From Tremella fuciformis (taxonomy: Eukaryota; Basidiomycota; Tremellomycetes; Tremellales; Tremellaceae), in NCBI GenBank assembly GCA_032768795.1, contig CP136491.1, positions 930,001 to 994,000 on the forward strand: DNA of 64,000 bases, written 5' to 3'. Positions 963-59,217 of the stretch are shown one piece after another. The notes under the pieces are model-generated. The model made no database searches and had not been told where the DNA came from. It saw only the letters and a program-made list of their open reading frames with translations. Numbering within the stretch: position 1 is the stretch's first letter; each line of letters starts with the position of its first letter. The position numbers and the translations under genes were made by a program.

Positions 963-3900
963 ATGATCAAGTGTTGGCTTGTCCATAACATCAATGTGAG
1001 CTTTGCCTTCAAGCGATGCATGCACATACTGATGCAGAAAGTCCCAGATATTGCAGCAATGCACTGCTCTCGAGGCCAACGCTGTTTGGGTCAGCACACA
1101 ACTCTCAATGGTGATCACTTTCGGAAGGCTTCTTCAGGGCGGGGCAGCAGCGACTTCTTCAAAACATGCTCCTTCTGTCGCAAACAACCGCCAGTCCCAC
1201 TTGCAACACCCCGGTCACGGCATGGTCATGCTGAGTGCATCAAATGTGGCTTCACCTTTGCCACTCCTCGATTTCGAGACAATCGAGGTCGCCCACGCAA
1301 CACATGCCAATCTTGCTTGGAGCAGCATCACTCCCAATCAGCGCCAGGCACACCCACTCGCACAACCCGGCCATTGCCACCAGTCACCCCAGGCTCTCAG
1401 CCTACGCCTGGTACACAGAGAGGTCTTCCACGCCCGCGCCATGAGGTCACCTCACCAACACCACGTCGCAACCAGGATCTACATCCTGTAGAGCTTGGCC
1501 GCCCCACACGAACCAGACGTGCACCTCAACTGCCCTACGCCACTCCGCCCAGCCCGCCTCAAGGTGCTGCACACCGAGTCACAGAACAGCCACCAGCCCC
1601 ACCACCACGCCTGGATCGCCATGCTGGACAGTCACGCTGCTTCAAGTGCAAGACCTGGAAAGAACATTCCGAGTTTCTCCAAGCAGGGACAGCCTCTCGC
1701 CGCTTCAAGACTTGCAGCACCTGTCGCGAATCCTCCAGAGCAGCCTATCATCGTCGACAACAGTCAACTCAGTCATCCCTCTCAGTCGACATGCTGGGCA
1801 ATGCCTTCCTGCCCATTCCTGCAACACCCAACGATCTTGACGACATCTGCCTCTCTGAAGCTGCCATTGGGTGTATTGGGGACTTCCACTCAGCAATGGC
1901 AGCTGAGACGATGGAGACTTGCGAGAACTGCAATGAGAAATGGTTTGGACTCAAGGTCCAACAGGGTAAATGTTCACGTTGTCAAATTGATGGGGAGAAA
2001 TGGACATCTGCCAACTGTATGGATCCAGGTCAGTGTCCAGGATTGTATGTGCTTCTCATGACTGACTTCACAGGTCCTTCTCTGCAGGAACTGTGCCGTG
2101 CAGCTGGCAGAGCAGTCCCTGACTTGCCCTCACAGGTGGAAGAGATGCTCCTCTCTCCCTACCATGTGCTGCTTCAAACATGGCGCGTTGGTGGTGGACA
2201 AACCAAATACGGAGGCCACACCTGTCTCTATGCCCATGACAGTGGCAGATTCCTCTCTCGACTTCCCCTCACCGTCACCGACCTTGATGTTCTCATCATC
2301 AAGCCGACAAATGCCCAAGCCCCCGCCAACGCTGCCAATCCCTCAGAGGATTTTGCACGCCGACCAGAGTTCCAAGTCCAGCGGTCACGCATTCTCGCAA
2401 ACCTGCAAGCACTACAACACTTCCATCCAGCCTTTCAGAATGTCGAGATCAACTGGGAAGCAATCAATTCCCTTCCTGAAAACGGTTCTGTCTTCCATCA
2501 GCTGCGGTCTGTCAACTTGGAGGAGGTGCAGTACAGCGCACCTGAGCCTGACACTGGGCCAGTTGAGCAGGAGTCAGCAGAGGAGACAAGCTTGCCAGAG
2601 CTGGCTATACCAAACCTTGGAGAAGGCAACAATATTGTGGAGGAGATCCGGGAAGCACTGGAACAGGTGGTGGATGGAGGACCACCAGCACCCCTGCTCC
2701 TCACTGGACCTGTGCTGCATTCCACTCCAATCAATGAGCACGACATCAGCAACCCATTCCTCACCAAGGCCTTCCCCTTCCTCTTCCCCACCGGCCAGGG
2801 GGATCTGCATCAACAACGGCCTACCACAATACGTGATTCAGACTACTTCCGTCACCTGCTCTACTATCAGGATGGAAGGTTTGCAAAACACCCTCGATTC
2901 CGGTGAGTGCATCTCTCAGCATTAAGCCAAGCTGACAGTCAGCTATTATGCCTTCAACTGCATCATGAGGTGGCGAGCAAAACGGCTCTCCTGCTTCTAT
3001 GTCAGCCGGAATGAAGAGGACCGAGCCCTCTCTGCTGCAGACATTGCTGCCATGGTGTCCGACCCAGCCAAGCAGCTGGCATCTCGAGTGCGACGATCAG
3101 CAGCCACCTTAACCGGAACACCACCCTACTGGGCACAGCAGAGTCGCAATCTTGCTGCAATGATCCGTCAACTGGGCACTCCACATGCTTTCATCACATT
3201 CTCAGCTGCGGATCTTCAGTGGCCAGATCTCCACGTCCACATGCCGGACCAAGCGCTACCAACTATGAGCGAACCTGATCGACAACGCATCAATGCCAAG
3301 AACGTCAATGAGAACCCAGCAATTGCAGCTTGCTGGTTCTATCGAAGATTTGAGCTGTTCTTGGCCAAGGTCCTCAAACCCCTGCTTGGAATAGAGGACT
3401 GGTGGTATCGCTTTGAATGGCAAAATCGAGGCTCCAGCCATGTCCATGGACTGGTTTGGCTCAAGGGGGCGCCATCCCCAGACACCCTTGATATCAACAA
3501 TCCGGACAGTGTCCAGGAATTCCTTGACTTCTGGTCCACCAGAGTGTCAACCATCAATCCTGGAGAGGACATTCCGCCTCATCCAAAGCACCCCTCTGCC
3601 CACAGTAGCGACGAAATCATCTTTCGCTTCAAAGATCTGGCACAGATGCTCAACCGTGTCCAGAGGCACACGAGGTGCACTGCCTATTGTCTTCGCCGCC
3701 CAAAAGGATCTCCTCCCAACAGTCCGCTTGTCTGTCGCTTCAAGTTCCCCAAGGAGCTGGAGACAGAACTCCGACTGGTTGTCAATCCCAACAGAAACAA
3801 GCAACTCATCACACCACGCAACGACACCCACCTCAACAGTTACAATGCAGTCACTGCACTGGGATGGCGAGCCAACTCCGACATCAGTCCATGCACAGAT

Positions 3901-6384
3901 CCCCGTGCAGTTGCCTCCTACATCTCCAAGTATGCTTCAAAATGCGAAAAACCATCCAACAACTTTGGCGAGATAATGCAGGCTATCTCAACCCGCCTGG
4001 AGCAAGAAACATCTTCACGAATTGTCTTCCAGAAGATGCTCAGCCGCATTGTCACCGAGAGGGATTACAGTGCTCAGGAAGTCTGTCATCAGCTCTTTGG
4101 TCGACATATGATGTCTGCATCACGAGAGTTTGGCACACTCTGCATACTGGAAAAGAGACAGAGACGCCTGAGGCAGAGGCAGGAAGATGAGGGACTGGAC
4201 CAAGGTGTGGAGGAGCAAGACTGGCACGATGCCTACTTGGCACGCCAGCCAGAGCATGAGGGCATCAGCCTGTACGAATGGTTTCAATTCTACCGGAAAC
4301 AAGGTCGCAACGCCACTCGAAGGAAGCACCCAAAGATCATCATTCTCTGGCCGCTGTATTATCCATCAGACCCTCAGTCTGAGGATCACCAAAACTGGTG
4401 CCGGGCAAAGTTACTACTCCACCATCCTCATCGACACCCTTCAGAGCTCAAGCTTGATGACGAATCCTGGACAGAAGCTTTTTCTCGCTGTACTGAGGAC
4501 CACCCAGAGGGGCACCAAGACACATTGCCCAAGCGACCCATCCGTCAACAACAGGGTGACAATGAAAACGACAGTGACTCAGAGTTTTCTGAGGGTGAAG
4601 AAGTCAATGACCACGAGCTTGATGACTGGCAAGTTCTGGCTGGAATGGGCCCTCAGTTTGATGAAGATGGGTGGAATGGGCCACTGCTTGGAGCACGTGA
4701 TATTGATACTTCCCACGATTGGGAAGCAGTGGGGAGGGAGTGGGGATCAGATGGTATAGGAGAGAGGGCAAGCTACTTAGAAACCGAACGCAAGAAGGTG
4801 AGCAGTGGCCTACAATCCACTGCATACTGTGAGCTGACCAAGCAGTCTCAGCCTTCTGTAGCTCGCAACACTGTCGATCCCCAACTACTCAACACCACAC
4901 AGCGCCTCATCTTTGACAAGGTCTTGCGCCATGCCAACCGTCTGCTCTCTGGAGAGTCAGTCCCTCAAATACTCCTCAACATCGATGGGACAGCAGGAAC
5001 AGGCAAATCCTTCCTCATTGACGCCATATCCCAAGCTCTTCAAGGGCTCCAATCTGGGCAGCACAACAATCTCGACTTCAGCACAAATCCCATTGTCCGC
5101 CGGCTTGCCCCCACGGGTGTGGCGGCATTCAACATTGCTGGTTCAACATACCATGCTGCCCTTGGTCTTGGAGGCTCAATAGAGGAAAGTCATGACAAGC
5201 TTGGAGAGGGAAAGCTTGCCAGCCTCCAGGAAGAGTGGCATGGGACACGATACCTCATCATTGATGAGAAAAGCATGGTTGGAAGGGCGGCCTTGGGGAG
5301 AATCAACCTTGCTCTTGGTCAAATCTTTCCGTCGACAGCGTACTTGCCCTTTGCCGGTCTGTCTGTCCTGCTCATTGGCGACTTTGGTCAACTGCCCCCT
5401 GTGGGAGACACTCCACTGTACAACACTGCACGCTCGACAAAAACCTCCTATCTAGGCAGGCTCAGCAACATTGGCCGAGATATCTACCTTGCTTTCACTG
5501 AGAGCGTTCAGCTTGATGCTGTTATGAGGCAGGAAGGCTCCGACCCTACCACCACTGCCTTCAAAGCAACCCTTGCTCGCCTGCACACCGGGACACCTCA
5601 ACAGGAGGACTACACCCTTCTGTCCTCTCGCTTCTGGGGGAACCTTTCCCCGGCATCTCAGCAGGCCTTTCAAGATGCTGTATGTCTTTGTGCAACAAAG
5701 CAGAGTGTCTCCGAGATCAACCTACACACTTTGGCTCGCTCTGGACAGCCTGTACTGCGCTCTCTGGCTCAGCACACAGGGGTAGGAGCAGCCCAGGCTT
5801 CAGAGGAACAGGCACAGGGGCTTGCTCCTGCTGTCTTCCTCATGATTGGTGCTCAAGTCATGCTTTCTCGCAACCTCTGGATCGAGCAGGGATTGGTCAA
5901 TGGCACCAGGGGCACAGTATATCAGATTGGGCTCTCACCATCTGAGCCTCCTCATCAATCTGTTCCTTCTGTGGTCATGGTCGCCTTCCCATCCTACACT
6001 GGACCAACACCCTGGCACACCACAGACAACATACCACTGGTTCCCATTGTGCCCCATACAGCCAGATGGGAGACAACAAACGGGCAGCGGTGCTCTCGAC
6101 GCCAGCTGCCACTGCAGCTTGCATTTGCTATCACCATACACAAATCACAGGGTATGACGCTGGACAAGGCAGTGATTGATCTTGGTTCAGCCGACTTCTC
6201 AACGGGATTGACATTTGTGGCAATCTCAAGAGCAAGATCTCTGGAGGGCCTTGCTTTCAAGCCAGGCTTTGATTGGGCAAGATTGAACAGCTTGAACACA
6301 GAGAGTAGAAGGGGGGGAGTATCAGGACGTGTATTGGCAGCAAGGGATGCGTCTAGACGTCAGATGCTTCAGATGACAGAATAA
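963..6384 (+). CDS. Helitron Rep/helicase protein (HUH nuclease plus PIF1-type helicase)
   Basis: Two long ORFs join through a 40-base intron at 2903-2942 (gtgagt donor, gctgac branch, cag acceptor), giving about 1,793 aa. The N-terminal 250 residues hold several Cys pairs (CSFCRK, CIKCGF, CFKCKTW, CSTCRE) like zinc fingers. A Cys-rich block follows (CENCNEKW through [11 protein letters not shown], about residues 320-345) of the type found before Helitron Rep domains. The Rep domain shows [15 protein letters not shown], the HUH-type motif HVHGLVWL (about residue 813) and the two-tyrosine motif YISKYASK (about 973-980). The PIF1-like helicase shows Walker A GTAGTGKS (about 1329), Walker B LIIDEKS (about 1418), [13 protein letters not shown] and the C-terminal motifs HKSQGMTL and FVAISRARS. 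Every catalytic motif is present without stops. The start may lie further downstream than 963. Confidence 0.92.
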
Positions 6385-6515: not shown

Positions 6516-7051
6516 CTAGCTACTAACACTACCTCTATCTGCCTCCATCTCCTGTCTGTAATCATCCCACACAGGATCATCAGCAGCAGGAGTTGGGGGA
6601 TCTGACCAGGTAGGAGGCTCAGGGGTGGGGGGAGGAGTGAAGAGAGGAGTTCCAGGTGGGCTTTCTCCTCCTCTGAGTGTTCTCATCTTCCTCAGCCAAT
6701 CCAGCATCCTACTTTTCCACAAGGGCAATCTGAAGGTCTGGGGATTGGTGACTGGACCATTGAAGCTACAAGTCAGCTTTGTGTCATGCCAAGAGAGAGC
6801 CTGACTCACAAGGACTTCACAACAGGTCTTTTGGGCACCCATGGCTTCTTCTCTCCATTGACTTTGCCTGACCCAGGAGGCAGGTAGGATTGTTGCTGGG
6901 GTGGGTGATAGGGAGAGTGTCTGACTGGCTGTGGGCGGCTTTGTTGAGAGCAGGAATGCTTGTGCTCATCATGAGGGTTGGGATGTCGCTTTTTTTGCTC
7001 TCTCTGGTGCTGCCTGAGTGCTTTTTTGAACAAAGCTGACTGGAAAGCCAT
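6516..7051 (-). CDS. Spliced accessory protein antisense at the Helitron 3' end, unknown function
   Basis: Two minus-strand ORFs fuse cleanly through a textbook intron at 6809-6766 (gtgagt donor, gctgac branch, tgtag acceptor, 44 bases). Exons 7051-6810 and 6765-6516 give 163 aa. The N-terminal half is basic and rich in His, Gln and Pro (KKALRQHQREQKKRHPNPHD). A short hydrophobic/basic core follows (TFRLPLWKSRMLDWLRKMR). The C-terminus is Pro-rich then acidic (PAADDPVWDDYRQEMEADRG). I recognise no domain. It is convergent with the helicase gene, with 131 bases between stop codons, and starts just inside the estimated right end of the element. It is therefore probably carried by the Helitron, though a host gene at the border is possible. 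The splice sites and maintained frame argue that it is a real gene. Confidence 0.6.
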
Positions 7052-7307
7052 TCTGATGTAGATGTACAGATGAGAGATGAAAAGTCCAAAATTTTCCGGA
7101 GTCAGAGCTACGCCCCATCGGCGACGCGCCACCGCCGATTTACCTAGTGAGTGTCTCTGCAAGACAATTTCAAGTTCTTCTTACACGGTCATTGTAGAAG
7201 ACTACGCTGACCCCTCGACTGCGCCTGCAGCTGAACTCGGCCTCCGGATTCCAAGCGTCAAACGACTCTCAAGTGTCAAGACGATAGACATTGATACTGC
7301 CAAACAG

Positions 7308-8356
7308 ATGAATCCAATGCCAAGCCATCTCGCATGTCGCAGCTGCGAATCACAGGGGCAAGCGCGTCGCTGGATCGAGGACAGACCGAGCAGCATGCCA
7401 GAGGCTGCGTGCAAGGCATGCTCGGATGCGTGCATAGATTGGATATCGGATACGGGCTCTGGGGACCCTGCGTGGATCTTCAGCGCGACATCTGCGACCC
7501 TGTCGGGCATGTGGCGGCGAAACAACGGAGCGAATCTGGCGACTCAGGCGCCGTCACGCCTAGAAGTGGGCAACGCATCCGATCGTATGGCGCTTGTGAC
7601 AACTGCAGCCGTCAGAAAACTGCCTGCCGCGATGACGCTAACGGCAAATACTACCCTCATGACGCTAATTCGTCTTGCAAGCGCTGCAAAAGTGCTAAAC
7701 GAGCTTGCAAGTACGCGGGCGCGATTGTCAAGGTGTCTGGCACTGACAGCTGGGCGAAGTGGGCTTGCCAGTCTTGCTATGACTCCGGCCGCACATGCAT
7801 GGCGTCACACGCAGCGTTGATGAAAAAGACTATGTACCCATGCGCTTCGTGCTATCATGCAAAGCAAAGCAAAGCCGAGACGTGTAGACCTCACAACCCA
7901 CGCATAGCGCCTCCAAGTCCGGACCTGCTCCTTTCGCGCGGGCAACAGGCGGTAACACGGTCTCAGTCATATCGTATGCACAAGCCCAACTACACAACGA
8001 GTAACGCTGCACTTAACTTCCCGTCGACGCACTTAGATACCAATCCGGCTGATGCCCCGGGTTTCAACGCGATACCTTCCGCTCTCCAGTCGAATTACAG
8101 GTATACAAGAGGACCAATTCCCGGCATGGTCGCAAGCGGGAGTCATTCGCATACAGAGGATTGGGCTGCATACGATCCCCTGCTGTATGTCAATGATACG
8201 AAAACCGGTACGTATGCCCAGGACGGGTTTGCTGACACCACGCAAGCCCCCTGGGTTTCCTCGCTGGCACCAGGGACCTTAGACTGTGTCTATGATGGCG
8301 AGGACCCAACTAATCATCAGCATGACACTGCCGATTCTACCTATCCGCTATTATAG
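7308..8356 (+). CDS. Zinc-cluster array protein 1: three tandem cysteine modules, first degenerate
   Basis: Two overlapping frames appear to be exons of one gene. The upstream frame (ATG at 7308, or 7077) gives ACRSCESQGQARRW...ACKACSDAC, a Zn2Cys6-like module in which the third Cys is Arg (cgt where tgt is expected). The downstream frame gives CDNCSRQKTAC-X16-CKRCKSAKRAC, with inserted KYYPHD. It then gives CQSCYDSGRTC-X14-CASCYHAKQSKAETC. Frame-compatible introns exist between the frames, for example 7502-7563; a frameshift is the alternative. The C-terminal 150 residues are Ser/Pro/Asn-rich with no MHR (fungal_trans) domain. Modules 2 and 3 align closely with those of the gene at 10809-12248. 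Likely a DNA-binding or zinc-binding nuclear protein, by inference only. Confidence 0.6.
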
Positions 8357-8864
8357 CCGCTCCTGTGGAGTAGGAATTGAGCTTCCTGCAGACCCCAGAC
8401 ATGGCTTCGCTGATAATCTTGATATTATATGTGTACTTCACAACCTTCCGCGCCATGGGTCGTAGCCAAAGTGATCAAGAGCAGACCATACACAGGCACG
8501 ACAGCACTTCTCATGTCAGTCAGATCCCGAGCAGTGTTTATCTCTTTGTACATATGCATGTAAGATACTGCATATCGCGAACAGCTTGGTAGGACGGCTG
8601 ATTACCGTTGTAGCTGGAGATGATCACGGTAATGTGAAGAGTCTCAATGGGATCGACCGGTCTGCGTGCATTTCGATCAATGCGGGAGAAGGCCGGTGGA
8701 GCTTTTGGGAAGGCATGAAGCTTGAAGCCATGCTGTCTGAGGGCTTGCTGTTCATCCTGAAGTCAACGTTGCCCACAGCAAAAATAGACTCACGAAAGGT
8801 AGTGTACATCGTTCCGCGCATCCCCGACACATTCTCTGACATTCCGCTCACAAGGTCGCGGTAG
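8357..8864. other. Intergenic between array genes 1 and 2
   Basis: Nothing convincing. Short open frames run across it but lack splice sites, codon pattern or recognisable motifs. It probably holds the terminator of gene 1 and the promoter of gene 2. Confidence 0.4.
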
Positions 8865-9794
8865 ATGAACTTGAGCCAGCGTCCAGACGGGAATATCCAT
8901 TCCGATGCCACTGCGTTGACGGGCTTCGCGGAAAGTTGGGACAGTGGGCACAAAAACCTCACGCGACTCGAGTCAGACGTCGGCCCCAGCCCGGTTCGAG
9001 GCTCAACGTCAGCACCGCAGGTGGACGCCTCTGGATGGCCACGCAAATCGCGGCCGGGTCATCATGGGATTTCAACATTGTCGCCCGCACCAGTGGTCCA
9101 AGCCACATCTGCAAGTCAATCACCGTCCCAGGGAAAGAAGAGCGCTTCAGCCTCAGAAGCAGTTACGACGGTGAGCCGCCGTGGGAAAAAGCCAGCTTGT
9201 GGCAGATGTCATCGGCTTCGCAAGGCCTGTGTCGATGTCAGCGTCGACGCAACCGAAGGCCCATGTAAGCGTTGTACCACCGCAGGGCTTTACTGCGACC
9301 GCACACGCTCGTCAACGTCTTTGTGGAGCAATCGACCGCGACAAGCGGCCGCTTGCGACTTTTGTCATAGACGGAAAGTTCGATGCCAGGTGTCCGTCTC
9401 CGAATTCGGTTTGGAATGCCAGAATTGCTGGTCCCGTCAACAGCGCTGTACATTCAGCCATTCCAAGGCCAGTCAGAGGGAGGAAGACATCTTGCGTTTG
9501 CGTGAGGCGAGACGTCAAACGAGCTTCAATACGATCAGTGGGTCTTCACAACATTTCACTCCAGCAGGGCCAGAGGCTACTCTCTCAGCCTGGCCGCAAT
9601 CAGGCCTCGGAGGTCAGCAATGGAACCTGACCTGTTCCACATCGGCCGGCGAGCCAACATCCAAAGAGTGGGAGGCTGGACGGAACGGCGAAGAGCAACA
9701 GCCTGGGGCTTCCGGCCTGAACCCCAAGCAGTACCATAGGATCATGAAGCGTAGACTGGCGCGGGCGAGACTTGAAGCGGAACTCGGCGGATGA
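8865..9794 (+). CDS. Tandem Zn2Cys6 protein with a C-terminal NF-YA (HAP2) A1-type helix
   Basis: A single ORF of 309 aa. Residues 1-110 are Ser/Pro-rich. Cluster 1 is C112-X2-C115-X6-C122-X11-C134-X2-C137-X6-C144 with CHRLRKAC. Cluster 2 is C164-X2-C167-X6-C174-X10-C185-X2-C188-X6-C195 with CHRRKVRC. Both fit Zn(II)2Cys6 DNA-binding domains. The last 24 residues contain NPKQYHRIMKRRLARARLEA, which matches the A1 helix of NF-YA/HAP2 (family pattern N-A-K-Q-Y-H-R-I-L-K-R-R-x-A-R-A-K-L-E) almost position for position. In NF-YA this helix docks on the NF-YB/NF-YC histone-fold dimer. The following NF-YA linker and the DNA-reading A2 segment are absent; a stop follows LGG. The inference is that zinc clusters supply DNA binding while the helix could recruit the CCAAT-complex histone-fold pair. 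No MHR domain is present. Confidence 0.85.
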   Translation: MNLSQRPDGNIHSDATALTGFAESWDSGHKNLTRLESDVGPSPVRGSTSAPQVDASGWPRKSRPGHHGISTLSPAPVVQATSASQSPSQGKKSASASEAVTTVSRRGKKPACGRCHRLRKACVDVSVDATEGPCKRCTTAGLYCDRTRSSTSLWSNRPRQAAACDFCHRRKVRCQVSVSEFGLECQNCWSRQQRCTFSHSKASQREEDILRLREARRQTSFNTISGSSQHFTPAGPEATLSAWPQSGLGGQQWNLTCSTSAGEPTSKEWEAGRNGEEQQPGASGLNPKQYHRIMKRRLARARLEAELGG

Positions 9795-10808
9795 CCCTGG
9801 AGAACCGGATTTTCGGTGCAATAAGACGTCAAAGAATGAATGCTCTGACACCGCCGCCTTTCTTCCTCTCATGCGTCAGCAAAAGTGGCGGGGCAGGAAG
9901 CCCTCGGGGTGGTCCGTGCGTATTCTGTATGGCTTTCCAAGTCGTCGGCGTTCGTTTATTGCCCAAGGAAGAAGACTCTGTTCATCACATGCATCATTGT
10001 TCCGTGCGATATGATGCTGTCTGTCGGCGCACCCACCGGGAGGACAACCTTTGGACGATGGAAAGACTATGCCGTCGTCCCTCGACCAAACGTCTCAACC
10101 GTCTCGGGCCGGCGCTGCTGGACTTGCATGCTGCAGTCGCTGTTTACTGTGTGAGCCTCTCAACGCCTCGACTGGGTCATGCGATTTGAGGGATAATCCC
10201 CGCACCTCTGTCGTGCGAAGCGAAGTACAAATCCTCACTGTTACCCCTCCTAAACTAGGATGCAGAAACGGGGGCCAGCTTATGAGACAAGGCGAAGTCA
10301 ATAGGCACGTTGTTCGGTTTTTGAAGAGCTTCGTGGGACCATGCCGCATCGTCTACCAACCGCCACTTTGTCTTTCAGGTCTGTGATTTTCCGCGCTCGC
10401 TGCAGAGAGTAGTCCGCTGGAATTAAAGGTCAAACATGCACCACTTTTGACGAGATTAGCGACCTAGCCAGCTAGACATCATCATAAACATCCACGACTG
10501 TGGTCAGCCTTCCCTACACGCAATTCTTGCGTTTTCTGGCTACCACCGACGACGGACTTGGAAATTTCCGAAGCTTCATTGCTTCTTTCAGCACGTCTCC
10601 TGCAGCGCGACGCGCGGATAATGCTTGCTTCGAATGTGTGTGTCGCCAGAGAAATGGTGGAACATTAAATTCAGGTGGGGCCTTCGATGGCCCGAGACGA
10701 CTTGTGGAGTCTTAGTCAGTGGCGTCTTGCTTTTGTGAATGTCCAGTCACAACACAGTGCTCTAAACCTCCTTGCCTATTTCCTCAGATCCGTACGATTT
10801 GGCTTACG
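9795..10808. other. Intergenic, about 1 kb
   Basis: No gene supported. I looked here for the missing NF-YA linker and A2 sequence (histidine/arginine-rich with RGPGGRF) in all frames and saw no convincing match. A pyrimidine-rich stretch ending TTTCCTCAG lies just before the ATG chosen for the next gene, so a 5'-leader intron is possible. Confidence 0.4.
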
Positions 10809-12248
10809 ATGACGGAGGCAAGATGTACAAGACAAGCCCGACAGCTAATCACGGCGGTCAGGATTGGAGAACCAATGCAAGAAGTCACGACTCGATACCC
10901 CATCGAAAAGATTGCCAAAGCAAAGGCAAGAAGAGTACTAGGCCGGCCAAGGACCACAACCATCACACCATGCCAGCGTTGTTCGACATACAGAGTGGCA
11001 TGCCGTTCCCTAACGAACAAGCCTATTCTTTGCGTCGAAACTGGCACTCAGTGTAAGAGATGTGTCGATGCTGGAGTGGTTTGCGTATTCCCTGATGAAC
11101 AATCGGGGGCAGCCCAAGTGATCGGCGAAACGACTCGGTCTCTGTCGCCTCCGGCAAGCCCCAGCACTGCCTCTTGGCACCTTCGTGATACAAACACCGG
11201 TAGTCGCGTAGACCTCTCTGTTGCGGAACAAACGCTGGAGCCGTGGCAGCTAAGTGCGTTCAATACCAGGTCCGCTCTCCACTCCGGAAGACCAGAGGGA
11301 GAGTATTCGTGCCAAGGACTCGGATCATCATACGCTCCAGGCTCTCAACAGAAACGTCATGAGGACATTGTGGACTCCCTGATTCATCCCAACAAGGATC
11401 AAGGGGACTTCACGCAGAGACGTCGCCTTTTCCGACCATCCCGCCCCCAGAGGGAATCATACGCGACCTCTCAACCCCGACGTAGCGTCGCATGCGATCG
11501 TTGCTCTCAGATGCGACTTGCTTGTCGGGACTCTTCTGGGAAGCCCTACTATCCACATGACCAAGAGTCGACCTGTGCACAATGCAAGGCCTCCCATTCG
11601 GCCTGTGCGTATGCAAATCCGAGGGTAAAGGTCCAAGGCACAGAGACATGGAAGATCTTGGCATGTGATGACTGCTACTTGCGGAACCGCACATGCATAT
11701 CGATGAGAAGTCGGATTGTCAGTCGCTCAATATATCCGTGTGCCGCGTGTTCTTATGATGAAGACCCGAAGAAAAGTCAAACGTGCGGGGTTGGTGAGTG
11801 GCGATCGCGATCGACCGACTTGATGCCACCAAGGCACAACCTCGTGTCAGAACAGGCCAAGACTGGGGCCGAGCCCGATCGGGAGGCGAACCAGCTCGAA
11901 ACCCCGCTACGGGATATACGGTCAGTGACAGGTCCCATCCTGCCCGTCCGAGCTGGAGCCGAAAGTACGGATGCACTGCTGCCGAGCTTCTCGCATGACA
12001 GAGAGCGACCAGGCATCGGCTTTCATTCGGCGGATCCTCGTGTCTGGCAACGAGATGAAAGCTTTTCCAGCGACGTATATGGTGCGCAATGGGGAGCTGG
12101 AAGGTTGTCTTTTCATGACCAATCACAGCTCAGCGACGCGCCAGGGGCGAGTGTGTCGGGATCATCGGTGCAATGGACAGACACCCAGAATTCCTGTCCT
12201 TCGCATTTGGTTCCGAGCTATGATCCGGTGCTCTGGTACTGGTTGTGA
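10809..12248 (+). CDS. Zinc-cluster array protein 3: three tandem cysteine modules
   Basis: The frame is open from 10719, but the first ATG is at 10809, giving about 479 aa. Module 1 is CQRCSTYRVAC-X16-CKRCVDAGVVC, with an extra Cys in the loop. Module 2 is CDRCSQMRLAC-X16-CAQCKASHSAC, with the YYPHD insertion. Module 3 is CDDCYLRNRTC-X14-CAACSYDEDPKKSQTC, an unusual CX2CX6CX14CX2CX11C arrangement. Modules 2 and 3 and their linker (VKVQGTETW) are clearly homologous to the gene at 7308-8356, so the two are duplicates. The first module sits about 135 residues before the second. The remainder is low-complexity with no MHR domain. Probably a nuclear zinc-cluster protein; its target is unknown. 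Confidence 0.75.
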   Translation: MTEARCTRQARQLITAVRIGEPMQEVTTRYPIEKIAKAKARRVLGRPRTTTITPCQRCSTYRVACRSLTNKPILCVETGTQCKRCVDAGVVCVFPDEQSGAAQVIGETTRSLSPPASPSTASWHLRDTNTGSRVDLSVAEQTLEPWQLSAFNTRSALHSGRPEGEYSCQGLGSSYAPGSQQKRHEDIVDSLIHPNKDQGDFTQRRRLFRPSRPQRESYATSQPRRSVACDRCSQMRLACRDSSGKPYYPHDQESTCAQCKASHSACAYANPRVKVQGTETWKILACDDCYLRNRTCISMRSRIVSRSIYPCAACSYDEDPKKSQTCGVGEWRSRSTDLMPPRHNLVSEQAKTGAEPDREANQLETPLRDIRSVTGPILPVRAGAESTDALLPSFSHDRERPGIGFHSADPRVWQRDESFSSDVYGAQWGAGRLSFHDQSQLSDAPGASVSGSSVQWTDTQNSCPSHLVPSYDPVLWYWL

Positions 12249-12818
12249 TGCAGACTCCGATAACATAGTTTGGCAGCTCCATGCCTAGCAAGGACTCATA
12301 TGAGGGCTCCGCGAGGAGTGTTCGGGAAGATTATCTTCCCTCCTAACGACATGGCGTGAGCCGTGCCAAGCACCGGATACGTACATCGGAATCTACCTCG
12401 CTTCGACTGTGCGCTCGTTGCATATGCTCAAATTCAGAGAAAGCTAACACGAGTACAGCCGTAATATGTATATCCAGGCTCTGGATTTGATGCTGAAGCT
12501 AGAAGGCTTTCACGGCGCCATTGTATTCCGAAGCCCCTTTTCACGACCCGCTCATCTGATGGCACAGCTGGAGGACGATGCTTTTCGTGCTTTGCACATC
12601 ATCATATGCACTGAATGTCGGTCAAGGCTTCTATCTGCCAGAAAGGCAAAGAGGGGATCGGCCGATGCCTGACTTGTCTCGGCGGATCGCGAAGGCTCAC
12701 CGAGACGTGTCTCAATTGAAAGAGAGGACCGAGTTAACAAGACATTAGAAGGGAAAGGGATGCACGCTGTCTTGTCGCATTTCAGCAGGGTGCTGGTCAT
12801 AGAGCTTATCTGTTGCCG
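12249..12818. other. Intergenic between array genes 3 and 4
   Basis: No supported gene. A short open frame around 12466-12672 contains CTECRSRLLSARKAKRGS, which faintly recalls the first half of a zinc cluster but lacks the second Cys pair. It could be a remnant. Confidence 0.35.
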
Positions 12819-13621
12819 ATGGATTCAACGCATCCCCTCCTGTCGACAGAGGACGGGCAGCCTCCATCCTTCGCCTGGGCTTATGGTGAACAGGTGCCCA
12901 AATGCGGCATCAATAGCCGCTGGTTTAGCACGGTTATGAACTCCGACTTCAGCACATCCCAGCCTTGGCGCACTGAATGCTCCTCCAACTGCGCTCGGCA
13001 GTCAAGTCATGATAGACAGCAGGATTTGAGATCTCTACCCGATGGCTTTCAACGATCGACTGCTCTTGCCGACATACTTTGCGGCGTGATCGGAAACCAG
13101 CCCAAGACACCCAGGTCTCGCTGCGCAACAGGTGCTTAGAGGAAACCAGGCTCCGCTGGTGTCAATGATAGTCGCTGTAGTCGATACATATCAATTGGTG
13201 ACCTATGCTCAAATGATAGCTCGTATCCCGAGTACATTTGCCATACTGCACTCGCGCCACCGGCTGACAAGGCGGCTCAATACAGTACACTAATCTCCCC
13301 CCAACGCGATCCTGGATCGCCTGTATATCATGCCGTCAAAGCAAGGTCAAATGTGACCAAGTCGTCCCCCTCTCGGAGTGTACAAGATGCGCAAGGCGAC
13401 AGACTGAATGCCTGTACGTTCAAGCCAGAGACGAGAAAAGGTTCTTTCAGGGGATAGGGTACGTGGACGCCCCTTTCGCGCGCCAGGATTTGCGATACGA
13501 GGAATGTCTCGGTGTATGGCCCTTGAGCGAGTCACATGGTCCTACCTTTCGAGACACCTTACCACCGCCCAAGGCGCACGGATCCGAAGTGGCGCGTGGG
13601 CGGGAAAAGGTCGGATTGTGA
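12819..13621 (+). CDS. Zinc-cluster array protein 4 (two exons, single Zn2Cys6)
   Basis: Exon 2 carries a canonical cluster starting at 13322: CISCRQSKVKCDQ, then CTRCARRQTEC (CX2CX6CX8CX2CX6C). It ends at a stop at 13619-13621 after a Pro/Gly-rich tail. Exon 1 is the frame starting at ATG 12819 (MDSTHPLLSTEDGQPPSF), rich in Ser and Gln like the N-termini of its neighbours. A frame-compatible intron is 13132-13271 (about 140 bases, longer than most here), so the junction is tentative. The cluster includes the basic CRQSKVKC stretch used for DNA contact. No regulatory domain follows. The layout, a long weakly conserved N-terminus then a cluster near the C-terminus, matches genes 5, 6, 7 and 8 of the array. 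Confidence 0.6.
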
Positions 13622-14321
13622 TGGCAGTACTCAGGAATGCATGTCATGGTAGCACTGATTCTCTTCAGTTACACATGCCTGAGGCCGGTCATGGCCGCAC
13701 TTGGGTCACGTATCACAGATAGTTCGCAACGAAGGCGGATCCTAGGCGCTTTTCGAGAAGGCTGGGTTTACGGACAGGAATGTTCCGAATGCAGAGGAGA
13801 TAACTCTCGCGCCTCTTTGGCTGATTGAGGTGCGCTTCGTAGCCAGAAGACTGACAAGAGGAAGCGGGAGGCTGCCTGAATTCCACATCCTTCGTGCACA
13901 CTTTCACACTTCATTCTCCCGAATGAACAGCCTTTTCGTCACCCGGAGAGGCTTTTTAGTCCGTTACCTGCCATGCTGTGAGCCTTGGTGGCTTGGTGTT
14001 GGCGATTCGAAATATGCCAAACCCCAATTTCCAATCCCCTTGCGCTGACAGGCTATTACTATCAAAGACGAAACGTGTACAGCGATACGACAATGTCGAC
14101 ACCCTTTGAGGAATCCACCGCTGCCTTCTTCGTTTGGGCGAAACACGAACTCCCAGCTGGCCAGGCTGGGGGAGGGAAGAAGAACCGAAATGGTCAAAAG
14201 GAGGCTGCACTAGAGTACATACAGGGACACCAGTCCAGGCTTTTTCGTCGCATTCTGCACCGTCCCCTCCCCCACCTGTCCTTCCCCTGGATTAATCTGG
14301 TTTCGCACTCTTCCGATCCCC
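13622..14321. other. Intergenic with a block repeated after the next gene
   Basis: No gene supported. Bases about 13715-13850 resemble about 15250-15380, for example CTTTTCGAGAAGGCTGGG versus CCTTTCAAGAAGGCTGGT, followed by matching GCTGA-T/C-T-G/A-AGGT segments. This indicates a local tandem duplication that produced genes 5 and 6. Confidence 0.45.
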
Positions 14322-15035
14322 ATGAACTTATCACAGTTGCTTCTACCGGCAGAGGGCACTGAGCCTGCAGGGGCGGCCACTTCGTCAGCCTTTGACGCAC
14401 ATGGGAATGACAGAGCGGGCTTTGACGGGTGGTTGTGCCCGCTCGCGAGACCCGGCCCCGTTTCGTATGTGCCCTCCCAGGATAAGCACAGCACTTGTTC
14501 TACTGCGCGGTCAAACGACGACAGACTGGCTTCATACAACTTCACCGCGATCCCTCAGCCTCCTTCTGTCTGTGTCGCAGACAGTGCGGCGAACGTTAAT
14601 GCTACCTGCCCTCAGACACATAACTATTCATGCTTCAACTCTATTGGTCGATCTTCCGGCGCCAATGTTTCCTATGACTACGGCCCACATCAGGACGAAA
14701 ACTTTGGCAACCACCTGGCGAAGGACTCCACAGACTGCTTTGGCATCACGGTAGCAGACAGATCCGAAGAAGCCGCCGGGACCACTTCCGTCCGCCGACG
14801 TCGAGTGCCTGTTGCTTGCATATCATGCCGAAGACTTAAGACCAGATGTGAGCAACGGGAAGTTGGTGCTCGATGCGAATCATGCACAAAACGAAATATC
14901 GAATGCAAAATTGCACCTGTCACCGATGCGGTGACATTCGATATCTCCCTGAGCGCTCTCAGTGATCTGCCATCTAGAGGCGCTCTCAAGGTCTTCGGCG
15001 AGGGGGAGTCACAAAACTCGACCCTCGGATCATGA
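14322..15035 (+). CDS. Zinc-cluster array protein 5 (single Zn2Cys6)
   Basis: An uninterrupted 237-aa ORF from ATG 14322. Residues 1-155 are polar and low in similarity to known domains. RRRR at 158-161 precedes the cluster C166-X2-C169-X6-C176-X8-C185-X2-C188-X6-C195 (CISCRRLKTRC and CESCTKRNIEC), with the basic residues expected for DNA contact. The tail of about 40 residues ends without an MHR domain, so the protein is only about a third of the length of a typical fungal zinc-cluster activator. Either it acts by competing for sites, or it needs a partner for activation; this is inference. It shares the first four residues, MNLSQ-like, with the array gene at 8865, which may be chance. Confidence 0.8.
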   Translation: MNLSQLLLPAEGTEPAGAATSSAFDAHGNDRAGFDGWLCPLARPGPVSYVPSQDKHSTCSTARSNDDRLASYNFTAIPQPPSVCVADSAANVNATCPQTHNYSCFNSIGRSSGANVSYDYGPHQDENFGNHLAKDSTDCFGITVADRSEEAAGTTSVRRRRVPVACISCRRLKTRCEQREVGARCESCTKRNIECKIAPVTDAVTFDISLSALSDLPSRGALKVFGEGESQNSTLGS

Positions 15036-15496
15036 GTGAGATCAAGCCCTTTCTGTCCCGACAGCATTCGGGAGCGCCACCGCGTGTCGTCAGCCATTTG
15101 GTCCCAGCAGCATCTGATGTTTAGAGCCCACTCGAGATGCAATACATAGACTCGTCTGATACTTAGGTATTATGCACTCGCTCATGCGACCTTCGTGCAC
15201 GACATGCTAGGGGAGAATTCCGCTATCAACCATCGCACTTTTCTGGCTTGCGTCTGCCGAAGGGGAAAACTAGAGGCCTTTCAAGAAGGCTGGTGGATAC
15301 ATCGGTTGGGAATGCTCGAGAACCCAGCTGAACGATTCTCGCATTCGCTTCGCTGACTAAGGTTGTTCGTGGTGAAAAGGACGCGAGTGCTTGCTCCTTC
15401 GACACTCCCTTACTGCTCAAACTCCAGCATTCCACCAGGATTGCTACGGGCGAATCATTCAAAGTACGCCGAGAAGCAGAGTCCGTTAAGTGGTAT
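15036..15496. other. Intergenic with second copy of the array spacer repeat
   Basis: No gene supported. It contains the second copy (about 15250-15380) of the spacer block seen at 13715-13850. Confidence 0.45.
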
Positions 15497-16183
15497 ATGT
15501 GCCGCAAAATGTCTAACGACGCACCAGAAAACCACAGCAGCGCATCCATGCTCGCATCGTGCCTCCCTACTGCCACTGACGGTAGCAACCTGGAAGCATG
15601 GGATTGGCGGCAATCTGGTCGTATGACGACCGCGTTTCATGAGGATGCCCCCTATAGCGCGCCTGCATCAACGTCTGGGGAAGAATTTACCGACTGCTTG
15701 CACATGCTCGAGATCCCCGATATACTCAGCCTTCCGGCCCCTGACACCGAGCACAACCTATCGCCTGACCACATGACGACTGAGACTAGTTTCGGGGCCC
15801 AACTTGATCATCGTCCCGAGCGGTCTTCGCATAGCAGTCACCTTACGGGCAAAGATGCATGTGCCAGATGCCGTGTCCTTAAAACACATTGCATAAGCGG
15901 TGAAGGTAGCAAGAGCTGCAATCCTTGTCGGAAGGCGAAGGCACGATGCGACCGTTCCGGCGCGGGCGGGCTTGCAAAGAGGAAGAAGGGGAAGTCGATC
16001 ACACGTAGCGTCCCCAACACTCTCATGCTCTCCCTGGTCAGTTCGACTGGACGAGTGAACTCGATCTATACCGATGGTACGCACGAATATGTGGTGAGAT
16101 GTATAGGAACTAGAGGTGACCTCACCGAGCCTGTCGCCGACTCACGTCAAACCGGCTCCGCTTGCAAGCCTGACGCTCCCTGA
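15497..16183 (+). CDS. Zinc-cluster array protein 6 (single Zn2Cys6)
   Basis: An uninterrupted ORF of 228 aa; ATG at 15497 or 15509. Residues 1-118 are Ser/Pro/His-rich. The cluster is C122-X2-C125-X6-C132-X8-C141-X2-C144-X6-C151 (CARCRVLKTHC and CNPCRKAKARC). It is followed by LAKRKKGKS, a likely nuclear localisation signal, and a 65-residue tail without recognisable domains. The spacing is the same as in array proteins 4 and 5, and the preceding spacer is duplicated, so 5 and 6 probably arose by tandem duplication. It is the last zinc-cluster gene before the MFS transporter. Confidence 0.8.
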   Translation: MCRKMSNDAPENHSSASMLASCLPTATDGSNLEAWDWRQSGRMTTAFHEDAPYSAPASTSGEEFTDCLHMLEIPDILSLPAPDTEHNLSPDHMTTETSFGAQLDHRPERSSHSSHLTGKDACARCRVLKTHCISGEGSKSCNPCRKAKARCDRSGAGGLAKRKKGKSITRSVPNTLMLSLVSSTGRVNSIYTDGTHEYVVRCIGTRGDLTEPVADSRQTGSACKPDAP

Positions 16184-16503
16184 AGTGACCAGCTGAAGCA
16201 TACGTGGACTACGAGTACCCCTCTCAACTGGGGGTAAAGACCGCTGGAGCCGGGTTAGGATCTGATTCTCTCGGCGAGGCGTAAAGCCAGCCCCCCGGAA
16301 ACGGCGACGGCGGTTAACTTTGTGCCTGATGACAACATGAAGAACAACTTTACTACTTCCCGCTAGCGAGACCATGTCTCGTGATGGTGTCATATGATCT
16401 CTTATCGCCAAATCAGCTTCTGGCCTATGCGAGCAATCAGACCTTTTATGCATCTTCTTGTCATCATCTCTCGGTCTTCTTGTCTCGCTGTGAACATCCG
16501 AAA
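16184..16503. other. Intergenic, MFS promoter
   Basis: No gene seen. The stretch separates array gene 6 from the transporter and should hold the transporter promoter. No individual site is clear. Confidence 0.4.
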
Positions 16504-18194
16504 ATGAGCGAGAAGAGTCCGCGTGACGGCGTCAAGTCGATAGGGGGCGACACCCACCTTGAGCTTGTGACGGGTGTGGACGAGGATGCCGCGATCGACG
16601 GGGTAGATCCTGTATACGCCGCCAAGGCGAGAGTCTTGAACCGTGCCGTGAGTCCCTCCCCTGTCCCCCTCGTCTGAGCTGTGGGTTGATGATCACAGAT
16701 CCAGGAGATAGGAATGGGCAAGTACCAATGGCAGTTGTTCATTGTCATTGGCTTCGGCTGGGCTCAAGACAACCTCTGGCCCATCGTGACATCCCTTCTC
16801 CTGTCTCCGATCGCCAACGAGTTCCACCCAAAGTACTCGGCCCTCCTCACGCTCGCACAGAATATCGGTCTCCTCGCTGGTGCCATCTTCTGGGGTTTCG
16901 GTTGCGACGTCTTCGGCAGAAGATGGGGATTCAACCTGACCATCGGTGTCACGTCGATCTTTGGCATGATCGCCGCTTCCGCGCCCAACTTTGCGGCCAT
17001 TGGTGTTTTCGACGCCTTGTGGTCTTTCGGCGTCGGCGGTAATCTCCCGGTCGACAGCGCAATTTTCCTCGAGTTCCTGCCTCGGAGCCATCAGTATCTC
17101 CTCACCATTCTATCGATATTCTGGGCATTCGCTCAGCTCATAGCGACCTTGATAGCCTGGCCCCTTCTCGGGAATCTCACCTGCCAGGAGAACACGGTCT
17201 GCACTCGAAGCGAGAATATGGGCTGGAGGTACTTTGTGATCACGATGGGCGGGCTTGCCCTCGTCATGTTCCTGTGCCGTTTTGTCTTCTTCTCGATCTA
17301 CGAGTCACCAAAGTACTACATGGGCAAGGGCAAGGACGACGAGGCCGTCCGCATTGTGCACGAGGTCGCCAGGCGGAACGGGAAGGACACAAATCTGACT
17401 GTCGACGACCTCAAGGCCTGCGAGCGCCCTGGTCAAGGCCCACCCACCCGAACGGACGCGACCGCCGCAATCAAGAGGCGGCTGGAGAAGCTGAGCCTGA
17501 AGCATGTCAAGGCGCTTTTCGCCACGAGGAAACTCGCATATAGCACCTCTCTGATCATGACCGTGTGGGCTTTCATCGGGCTTGCCTTTCCACTCTATGT
17601 GCGTCCACCGTAGCGGGCGGGAACACGGCTCACCAACGTAGAACGCGTTCATTCCCTACACACTTGCCATTCGAGGTGCCCAATTCGGCGACTCTTCCAC
17701 TTACATCACGTATCGCAACTCGTGCATCATCGCCGTGCTAGGGGTTCCAGGCGCCATGCTGGGAGGTCTCCTCGTCGAGATCAGGGGGTTCGGACGAAAG
17801 GGAACACTGTCGACTTCGACCATCCTCACCGGGGTTTTCATCTACGGTAGCACCACGGCTAAAACGAGCAAACAGCTTCTGGCATGGGACTGCGTCTACT
17901 CTTTCTTCTCCAACGTAATGTATGCGGTCCTTTACGCTTACACGCCCGAGATCTTCCCCACCAAAGACCGAGGGACCGGCAACGCCCTGACCGCCACCGC
18001 AAACAGAGTGTTCGGTATCATGGGTGGGTGCGACGGCAGTCCGGTGTACTCGCTGATGTAAAGCACCCATCATTGCTATGTTCGCAAATCTGGAAACTTC
18101 AGCACCGGTCTACACAAGCGGAGCACTGTTCATCGCGGCAGGCCTCATCGTCCTCATCCTGCCATACGAATCTCGGGGGAAGGCGTCCTTGTAA
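16504..18194 (+). CDS. MFS transporter, SV2/organic-anion or sugar type
   Basis: Four exons, 16504-16647, 16699-17598, 17642-18023 and 18064-18194, join in frame to give 518 aa. Splice sites are gtgagt/cacag, gtgcgt/cgtag and gtgggt/aaag. After a hydrophilic N-terminus come membrane segments including WQLFIVIGFGWAQDNLWP and NIGLLAGAIFWGFGCDVFGR. The loop 2-3 MFS signature is GFGCDVFGRR. A central loop follows (YESPKYYMGKGKDDEAV), then NAFIPYTLAIRGAQFGDSST and final helices with LPYESRGKASL at the C-terminus. The pattern PKYYxxKGKDDEAV is typical of fungal SVOP-like transporters. The substrate cannot be read from sequence. It is the only transporter inside the zinc-cluster array and on the same strand, so a regulator-transporter relationship is possible but unproven. 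Confidence 0.9.
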
Positions 18195-18382
18195 AAAGTC
18201 CACGTCAGGACACACCTTTGTAACGAGTTGCCTGTCTTTGCAATGGGGCGGTGCTCAGACAAGCTGACGGGGAGCGCGTCTTCACTGACTGGGTCACCTG
18301 TCCTTTCTCAGTCACTCCATTCACCTATGACGCATTTAAGCGAGCCCCACTTGGAAAGGCCTTCCGCTGCCTTCGCTCTCAC

Positions 18383-18994
18383 ATGCTGAACAAGACCTCT
18401 GAAATACTTCTGACTGACTCACGGGCAAATCACCGCAGATCCGTGATGCTCAACGATGCCAATGCTCCAGTACTCGACACACACTCAACAGAATTGACGA
18501 TGGGCAAATCCGTGGTTCTACCGATGAAGACAGTCGTCAATGGGTTTACCGAACGAGGGGGCATCTCTCCAAGTCAAGGCGAAAGCTGGCAGCGCAACGT
18601 ATACGCACCGAGATGGGAAGTCTGTCTGGGCTCGTTCAAGGAATCTGACACAGTCAGGATGCCAGCATGGTGGAGTGACACCACAGGGACTTTGATGTCC
18701 AAGTCTCTTGATCACGCTGTAGACTTCGACTGTTCGGCCGCATTCATCGAAGATGCCAAGCGTTCACCTGCCATACTCGACCAGGTGACACAATCGCCAC
18801 AGACGTTAATTCGAACGGCTCCCAACCACGAGGAAGAACGCCTACAGGCAGGAGTCGGTAAGCCTGCCGCAGGGGAGGTCTGCCTTTTGCCCGAAATGCA
18901 ATGGGAAGGCCCTGGGCTGGTCGTAGGCGTTAGTCAGCCGCTTCAACACACACAGGTCTGTGGGCCATACTGGTCCACTGGCATCTGTTTGTAA
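18383..18994 (+). CDS. Hypothetical ORF within the zinc-cluster array
   Basis: The frame is open from 18251 with the first ATG at 18383, giving 203 aa. The composition (Ser/Thr/Asp-rich, no domain) resembles the N-terminal halves of neighbouring array proteins. However, the C-terminal part (EVCLLPEMQWEG...VCGPYWSTGIC) does not form a Zn2Cys6 motif in any frame. It could be a decayed array member, a first exon of an unrecognised gene, or a chance ORF. Confidence 0.3.
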   Translation: MLNKTSEILLTDSRANHRRSVMLNDANAPVLDTHSTELTMGKSVVLPMKTVVNGFTERGGISPSQGESWQRNVYAPRWEVCLGSFKESDTVRMPAWWSDTTGTLMSKSLDHAVDFDCSAAFIEDAKRSPAILDQVTQSPQTLIRTAPNHEEERLQAGVGKPAAGEVCLLPEMQWEGPGLVVGVSQPLQHTQVCGPYWSTGICL

Positions 18995-19609
18995 CGAATA
19001 ATTCCCCTTCTTCGTTCGAATGTTTTTCTGAACACTGAGCGATCACGACCTTAAGTTCAATGTCTTCTCGGCGCTTTGCTCCATCGCTAGATGTAGGAGT
19101 CGGGCTTAGTAGCTAAGCCGGACCACTGAGAATGAATCTCCATATGAGCAGCGAAGCATTCCAGCAGAGCCGGACGCACACCAGACATGGTGAGTCGGGC
19201 GACGGTCCATTTCTGGCGCTCTGTTTTGACCTGCGCTCTGTCAAGCGCTCTGCTTGATCTCAAAACCCACATCGACACATATGTTTCTTGATTCCTCGAC
19301 TGTCGCGCGTTCCATCCAGCAGGATGCTCGCCTTCGGGCTGCTGCGTGGGATCGACGAATTCGAAATAATCCATGAAGGGAGGCACTTTGCTCCTTTCTC
19401 ACCTGCCTCTCGCTCTCGAACCCTCTTTCCCGCTTGCAGCGGGTTTGCCAGGTGAGCACCCACATACAATTCAAGTCGCATTGCGAGTTGCATGGCCATC
19501 AGACTTCCAGATTTTTGAAGCTAAAGTAGGCAACGACGGGCACTACAAAGTTCCCTCGGAGTGATCAAACTGAGCAGCGTCTGAAGATCAAATTGGGCAC
19601 GTAGTCAAC
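18995..19609. other. Intergenic
   Basis: Several short overlapping ORFs occur on both strands, but none has splice sites or motifs that support a gene. Confidence 0.4.
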
Positions 19610-20533
19610 ATGGACAATCGGGTCAATGAACAGTGCATCTACGGAACAAGTGGGACCTACAGTCGTGAGCAAGGGCAAGATATTGCAATTACCACTCCGA
19701 CTGAGTATCCGGAAATGAGTAGCGGAACAGCTTACGCAGGATCGTTGGTGCCGATAGACATGGCCCAGTACGGTGCTTTTGACCAACAAAATGTTCTTGA
19801 TACCTCTCTAGGTGCCGCGGGCCCCATCACCTTTTCCGTCGACGCAGCAGCCATTGACGTTGAGCAATTTGGTGAAATCTTACGGGCGACATGGGACCAA
19901 TTCGCGCCGACCGCAACTGACCAGCGTCAAGCGCACGGAATCGGGTAGGGGAGTCCTCGCTTTGGAAACGCAGATGATGGGACCTGGCTCTCTGGCCCGA
20001 TGCAAATCGCACCTGATCTCGCCCTGATGCCCCAACCGAACGTTTGCAATCACGTTGCCCAAGCTTTTGAAGGAATGCCAGGGCAGTTTTTGTCGGACGC
20101 AGGGGCCGAAACAAGTCTGCTGCCCTTGTCCGCAGACCAAACATGCGTGCCAGAGACTTACCCGAATGCCACAGCCTTCGGCGGGTCGACCTGGCAACAA
20201 GACACAAGCGTCCCCGGCAGTCAGGCGATATCGAACTTGGAGAGCAGCACTGATGCCTCTCAGCTGAAGCCGGTTAAAAGGCTTCGACGAGCTTGTAGCA
20301 GTTGCAATACACGAAAGGTCAAATGTGACCAACAGCGGCCGATGTGTGCTAGTTGCATGACGCATGGGCACGAATGTTTCTATCAGACGCCTCCTGAAGC
20401 TACCGTCAGTAAGCGATCACAGAAGAAACGGGATCGCCAACAAAACAAGCGCTTGGGCTCGGCTGGATCGGAACCTTCGATGGCAATCGAAGTCCAATCG
20501 CGATCATCAAGCCGAACCTCATTCACGTCGTGA
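19610..20533 (+). CDS. Zinc-cluster array protein 7 (canonical Zn2Cys6)
   Basis: Exon 1, 19610-19925, and exon 2, 19974-20533, are joined by a frame-compatible 48-base intron (gtcaag donor, acgcag acceptor), giving 291 aa. The N-terminal 200 residues are polar and contain acidic/hydrophobic patches (DVEQFGEILRATWDQF). The cluster reads CSSCNTRKVKC, DQQRP, MCASCMTHGHEC. Its spacing, CX2CX6CX6CX2CX6C, is the textbook form, including the Pro in loop 2. A strongly basic segment, KRSQKKRDRQQNKR, follows and could be a nuclear localisation signal. The protein ends about 45 residues later without an MHR domain. The donor choice is the weakest part of the model. Confidence 0.75.
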
Positions 20534-58900: not shown

Positions 58901-59122
58901 TTGCTCCGCCAGAGGGAGCGAATCCTCGAGAACTGCAGAATTGCGTGCTGATGGGTGTGGAGCATCAATCACAAGCCTCCACGGTTGTGTGGCAAACGCA
59001 TACAAAAGGCATTCCGTGTTTGATGGAGAGGCGTTTCCCGGACAGGATGTTGGCCAGTGCGAGAGCGTAAAAGAGAGCACACACACACGCGCCGTGATGT
59101 GCCTAATCAGCTCAGCGGGCAA

Positions 59123-59217
59123 AACCCCAGCGGGGGGTCGAACCCCGGATCTTCCCATTAACCTCCGATCAAACCTTCGGTAGAAGTGGGATGCGTTGGC
59201 CTCTACGCCACTAGGGC
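59123..59217 (-). tRNA. tRNA-Arg (anticodon UCU) with intron
   Basis: Minus strand. Acceptor arms GCCCTAG and CTGGGGT pair over 7 bp with two wobbles. The D arm is GCGT-AGAGGCCA-ACGC. The anticodon stem is TCCCA/TGGGA with loop CT-TCT-A (anticodon at 59184-59182), interrupted after position 37 by an intron of about 22 bases. The variable loop is AGATC, and the T arm is CGGGG-TTCGACC-CCCCG. A box (TGGCGTAGAGG) and B box (GGTTCGACCCC) are both good. It lies directly 5' of the LINE, on the same strand. Confidence 0.82.

Follow-up and report, generated by a model that had tools for sequence, protein, structure and literature searches.

A single open reading frame (ORF) of Tremella fuciformis joins two Zn2Cys6 zinc clusters to the A1 docking helix of NF-YA, and this helix most likely descends from the lineage's own NF-YA. 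The ORF lies in the window, by which we mean the whole 64,000-nt stretch of DNA that was analysed (930001-994000 on contig C2), and the features of its candidate product are collected in Table 1. We propose tentatively, at a little under an even chance, that the product joins the NF-YB/NF-YC dimer as an alternative third subunit, in which an A1 copy of the own NF-YA has been joined to a double-Zn2Cys6 gene.

Table 1. Features of the candidate Zn2Cys6 + A1 gene, in window positions
Feature	Position	Strand	Basis or remark
ORF, candidate Zn2Cys6 + A1 protein	8865..9794	+	309 aa, stop included, one open frame
Zn2Cys6 cluster 1, residues 112-144	9198..9296	+	cysteine pattern C2C6C11C2C6C
Zn2Cys6 cluster 2, residues 164-195	9354..9449	+	cysteine pattern C2C6C10C2C6C; Zn_clus best stretch 163-201
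Predicted helix 3' of cluster 2, residues 202-221	9468..9527	+	AlphaFold2 single-sequence model
NF-YA A1 segment, residues 285-306	9717..9782	+	Pfam CBFB_NFYA; PDB 6qmp/4awl/4g91
16-residue core K288-L303	9726..9773	+	by residue counting, human NF-YA K270-L285, the published 16-mer
24-nt stretch without mismatch to the own NF-YA's A1 exon (G000:C7)	9747..9770	+	DNA comparison

The original prediction, made from the letters of the DNA, had placed a match to the NF-YA A1 helix at residues 286-305 (NPKQYHRIMKRRLARARLEA, encoded at 9720-9779) and had proposed a profile search of the translation as a check. Pfam CBFB_NFYA (PF02045) scored 32.8 bits on the 309-aa protein, above its cut-off of 27 (E 1.1e-7), confirming the match and extending it by one residue on either side, with residues 285-306 aligned to profile positions 5-26 of 56. 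When the genome was searched with the same profile, this A1 scored at E 1.4e-6 and was one of three places at E <= 0.001 in 28.1 Mb on 11 contigs (five candidates scored); the other two places, on contig C7, are both exons of the canonical NF-YA gene. A PDB sequence search at E <= 1 returned five distinct sequences, every one an NF-YA or HapB chain, with the NF-YA docking peptide 6qmp_A (E 4e-4) ranking ahead of 4awl and of 4g91, a fungal HapB. The 22 residues align ungapped with the own NF-YA and with the human 6qmp peptide, and 17 are identical in each comparison. Moreover, in an AlphaFold2 single-sequence model of the protein, with a mean pLDDT of 46 overall, helix 287-308 was the most confident part (pLDDT 69, 92 and 84 for blocks 281-290, 291-300 and 301-309). 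The A1 region alone found nothing in the protein database at E <= 10 among 16 candidates, a search that is uninformative because 22 residues are hardly significant in 5.8 billion sequences.

The predicted 309-aa ORF, with two zinc clusters upstream of A1, was likewise present as described: both clusters are complete and share with A1 a single uninterrupted frame of 309 codons, ending in TGA at 9792-9794. Zn_clus (PF00172) matched the protein with 33.6 bits against a Pfam cut-off of 21, and either cluster retains all six cysteines and a basic C2-C3 loop, which points towards DNA binding. The helix predicted behind cluster 2 (pLDDT 57 in block 201-210 and 68 in block 211-220) is a possible dimerisation helix. 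Pfam reported no third family at E <= 1, and at this threshold neither the Fungal_trans middle domain (which we take to be PF04082) nor a CCT domain was found in the protein. The first ATG stands directly behind a TAG, so an additional upstream first exon is possible; the only other methionine is residue 294. Over the whole ORF, frame +1 had the highest codon score of the six (0.069 bits per codon, runner-up -0.089), with codon usage taken from long ORFs in the fetched loci (30 ORFs for the frame score). This score has little discriminating power: among 127 overlapping ORFs that had not been selected, 60 reached or exceeded the value of the ORF, 56 of 136 selected ORFs lay at or below it, and one alternative frame scored slightly above +1 in the N-terminal part and two did so in the zinc region. 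We infer that the frame is translated as one protein. A genome-wide Zn_clus search, in which 150 of 199 candidates were scored, gave at least 143 places at E <= 0.01, among which the relatives of the zinc part were domain-level matches only, and a parent zinc gene lacking A1 was not found in the genome (best E 0.003). Three further loci among those fetched (L038, L039 and L065) also carry two Zn2Cys6 clusters in one frame.

The absence of the A2 part, also claimed from the letters, was borne out by the frame, the genome profile search, a local tblastn search and an enumeration of splices. Neither an A2 helix nor a GGRF motif stands in frame behind A1, and the genome-wide CBFB_NFYA search placed no A2 next to it. 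GT occurs in A1 at 9731 and 9751 and nowhere between 9751 and the stop, and no GT splice donor was found downstream of the A1 core as far as the stop. Splices were enumerated from GT donors at 9741-9795, of which 9751 is the sole one; a downstream A2 exon reached through 9751 was rejected, since its best A2 score of 32 did not exceed the mean maximum of shuffled sequences, 32.6. Over 7000-13000, tblastn gave weak A2-like matches only, the top two on the minus strand (12894-12781 at 21.9 bits and 9959-9861 at 20.8 bits); of 100 shuffled sequences, 5 scored as high as the first and 9 as high as the second. The second lies just downstream of the ORF and contains one stop; it is probably due to chance, because 9 of 100 shuffles reach its 20.8 bits.

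To our knowledge almost all eukaryotes possess NF-Y, and fungi usually have one NF-YA. In this genome the canonical NF-YA gene is on contig C7 and the Zn2Cys6 + A1 ORF on contig C2, and the spliced NF-YA model of 297 aa is identical to a database protein (P0001); a second database protein, P0002, from a close relative, shows 83% identity in the NF-YA region. NF-YB was found on contig C5 (human NF-YB being its top PDB hit at E 3.4e-28) and NF-YC on contig C4 (exons at E 2.4e-13 and 0.17), thus the genome encodes the partners required by an A1 helix; a further NF-Y-like candidate (L011) proved to be histone H2A and was rejected. The best named database relatives of the own NF-YA belong to Kwoniella and Apiotrichum, which are Tremellomycetes (looked up for one species each), and to Vanrija, Cutaneotrichosporon, Cryptococcus and Tremella, presumably Tremellomycetes as well.

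The DNA of A1 matched the own NF-YA exon with 85% identity over 53 nt (E 2.3e-9), and this match, together with the 24-nt identical run, makes the lineage's own NF-YA the most likely source of the helix. Besides that exon the A1 DNA had no genomic match at E <= 10, and further A1 copies were not found in the genome at E <= 10 (two candidates passed a first look). If a GCG codon is read as inserted, E and L also align by eye, and 19 of the 22 residues agree instead of 17. The two genes use the same codon for 11 of the 17 shared residues (P 0.0025 with the NF-YA codons given, 0.010 when both sides are drawn), including a run of eight (P 7e-4 and 0.0024, respectively), with a codon table rebuilt from long ORFs to which one extra locus was added; these values favour descent over convergence, the numbers being moderate. 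Six of 21 aligned codons, four of them in the core, differ synonymously from the own NF-YA, hence the copying was not very recent. The likeness of the DNA to the NF-YA exon drops to background a few codons past A1, and homology to NF-YA upstream of A1 was not convincing: a local score of 19 was equalled by 150 of 1000 codon shuffles, and anchored scores over five lengths by 25 to 95 of 500. This ORF and the zinc ORF at 14322 both open with MNLSQ; a homologous origin of the two starts was rejected, the DNA match being no better than background.

Helitrons can capture exons, and an autonomous Helitron with ORFs at 963-6384 (a DUF6570 ORF, and a Helitron_like_N + PIF1 helicase ORF) lies upstream in the window, its 3' end being the CTAG at 7147. 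In 17 of 20 fetched copies the exact identity with the window copy stops at 7148, in two it stops at 7149 and in one at 7151. Capture of the gene by this element was rejected, since the identity ends 1.7 kb before the ORF and the gene is therefore outside that copy. All 40 scored copies were 100% identical over 3436 nt (54 candidates, window copy included), and the Helitron burst is very recent; on contig C7, copies alternate in orientation at 1.09-1.14 Mb, with flanks common to some of them. Zinc-cluster-like ORFs, recognised from pattern matches and Pfam places, are grouped at 7334-20400 (7334, 8865, 10719, ~13319, 14322, 15497 and ~20288), and those at 7334 and 10719 have a related cysteine-rich region of 123 residues (40% identity) that belongs to no Pfam family at E <= 1. 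Farther downstream, a LINE-like ORF of 2536 aa on the minus strand (52085-59695) matched RNase H with 34.3 bits and reverse transcriptase with 28.0 bits, just under the Pfam cut-off of 29.6.

In the mechanism that we propose, a double Zn2Cys6 gene would have gained, in frame at its 3' end, an A1 copy of the own NF-YA, and the A1 of the resulting protein would fill the groove that NF-YA uses on the histone-fold dimer of NF-YB and NF-YC. NF-YA would be shut out of a dimer occupied by the zinc-cluster protein. Because A2 is missing, a complex with this protein could not read CCAAT, and any address on DNA would have to come from the zinc clusters. The dimer would thus be redirected, with competition against NF-YA as a consequence, since the same groove would be filled in the same geometry. 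The original prediction had raised redirection and competition as alternatives. Docking, NF-YA exclusion, DNA binding by the clusters and the targets of this protein are all what we infer from its sequence. A more specific version, in which a two-zinc-cluster factor with a captured A1 for the CCAAT-reading half brings the dimer to zinc-cluster sites and is an independently evolved fungal counterpart of the plant NF-CO switch, is on the doubtful side. The zinc domains of plant CONSTANS are B-box fingers.

The statement of the original prediction that A1 binds the NF-YB/NF-YC dimer agrees with published human data, in which isolated A1 binds and a stapled form competes with NF-YA (PMC6900064). 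Human NF-YB/NF-YC has no relevant CCAAT affinity before the third subunit joins, and the NF-YA 29-mer V267-R295 binds NF-YB/C with a Kd of 0.7 uM (PMC6900064). Without its seven C-terminal residues the Kd was 1.3 uM, a form that ends, by counting, at the position of E306 here; removal of ten residues gave 2.0 uM and of three more 9.5 uM (PMC6900064). The 2.0-uM form without its first three residues is the 16-mer (2.9 uM), which was found crucial for NF-YB/C binding, and trimming of the N-terminus beyond it gave a Kd of about 45 uM (PMC6900064). In the protein here this core is identical to the own NF-YA in 15 of 16 residues, M294 being the difference, and to the human peptide in 13 of 16, and the differences from the own NF-YA fall mostly outside the binding core. 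Inside the cell, micromolar affinities such as those of these peptides might not suffice.

The rival that survives best is a fusion in which A1 has no function, an NF-YA exon fragment having supplied the C-terminus and stop of a fast-evolving zinc gene, or a gene with scant expression; we regard it as unlikely and still a serious contender. The 309-aa protein found no relative in IMG/VR, and none of 4231 candidates in the protein database was related to it at E <= 1e-3, which leaves room for a functionless fusion. The same database contains the own NF-YA, spliced, and many Tremellomycete proteins, and not the 309-aa protein. P0001 may be a transcript or a splice-aware prediction, therefore this absence says little on expression. 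Moreover, at the sites of L285 and P287 each of 120 NF-YA relatives has V and A, respectively, and M294 occurs in none of these (112 L, 8 V), the comparison being with the best 120 of 3286 relatives at E <= 10; removal of the residues equivalent to L285 and P287 from the human peptide cost little affinity (PMC6900064). The weak codon signal and the very recent Helitron burst, with one copy 1.7 kb upstream, also fit a fusion without A1 function. Against it, 15 of 16 core residues were kept despite four synonymously changed core codons, and the frame and both zinc clusters are intact. In a codon model the omega of the copy was about 0.2 (2dlnL 4.6 versus neutral, and about 9 when the whole change is assigned to the copy); the test is biased toward constraint, because its 21 codons were picked by similarity and the NF-YA omega was fixed at 0.05, with equal times. 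Hence the omega is no more than suggestive of constraint on the A1 copy.

The protein might instead be a pure antagonist that titrates NF-YB/NF-YC away from NF-YA, its clusters serving nuclear location or dimerisation, and the absence of A2 would fit this role. In the human system a stapled A1-derived peptide disrupts the NF-Y trimer and lowers its DNA binding, the bound DNA fraction falling from 88% to 32% at 10 uM; however, that inhibitor is stapled, and a weaker stapled variant was without effect (PMC6900064). The six cysteines and basic loops kept in both clusters also point to DNA binding, and we consider pure antagonism improbable. Basic stretches frequently serve as nuclear localisation signals, and the strongly basic KRRLARAR could have been kept solely as such a signal or as a nonspecific DNA-binding tail, but KQYHRI before it and L303-E304 after it were also kept, which a localisation signal does not need, and this explanation is quite remote. 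An error in the gene model, with an unseen intron that takes A1 out of the transcript or brings in an A2 exon, is barely credible: the ATG directly behind a stop would allow an upstream exon, whereas the 309-codon frame already spans both zinc clusters and A1, no GT donor follows the A1 core before the stop, and neither the profile nor the 9751 splices gave A2-like sequence.

If an alternative third subunit is indeed encoded here, the histone-fold dimer would be a docking platform that was re-aimed in evolution by moving about 22 residues, and the protein would offer a natural inhibitor or re-targeting tool for NF-Y. The original prediction knew of no described protein with this arrangement. 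For Zn2Cys6 combined with A1 this stands, as no such protein appeared in titles or abstract openings of the open-licence literature surveyed; for A1 without A2 it does not, since Plasmodium ORP3 is of this kind (PMC13323700). In the available text of PMC5310086 and PMC3778014 both Pfam names are present as separate families or genes. Shelest (2017) described 12 fungal dual-specificity types from 191 TFomes, each in at least five genomes, and in the available text zinc cluster plus NF-YA is not among the 12, rarer combinations being merged there (PMC5415576). Alternative subunits that dock through A1 are thus already known, and the zinc-cluster version would be new, a single case with a putative function.

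The A1 docking segment is common to this protein and to NF-YA/HAP2/HapB, which have the A2 helix and GGRF where the protein here has two zinc clusters instead. HapX joins the CCAAT-binding complex that contains HapB/NF-YA, whereas the docking motif here would replace NF-YA. HapX/Hap4-like fungal factors are separate regulators that sit on the CCAAT-binding complex via a short docking motif (PMC6652802), and fungal dual-specificity factors resemble the present protein in coupling a zinc cluster with a second regulatory module (PMC5415576). In plants, CONSTANS is a third subunit that re-addresses the NF-YB/NF-YC dimer, and CONSTANS and the CCT/GATA factors combine zinc domains with a segment like that of NF-YA and form actual or proposed alternative NF-YB/NF-YC trimers (PMC6843132). 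For NF-CCT complexes it has been suggested that the specificity may come from domains other than CCT; the plant proteins differ in that CCT has a DNA-binding part besides the docking part, and in being from plants, not fungi (PMC6843132). Plasmodium ORP3, like the protein here, has A1 without A2, and in both the likeness to NF-YA is limited to A1, the remainder of our protein being unrelated to NF-YA (PMC13323700). A 97-residue ORP3 construct with A1 bound the NF-YB/YC-like histone-fold dimer ORP1/ORP2 in a yeast three-hybrid assay, and deletion of A1 blocked the function of ORP3 in sporozoite egress (PMC13323700). ORP3 differs in that no other domain is reported in the available text, in its place at the oocyst periphery, and in its partners ORP1/ORP2, which are not the transcriptional NF-YB/YC (PMC13323700).
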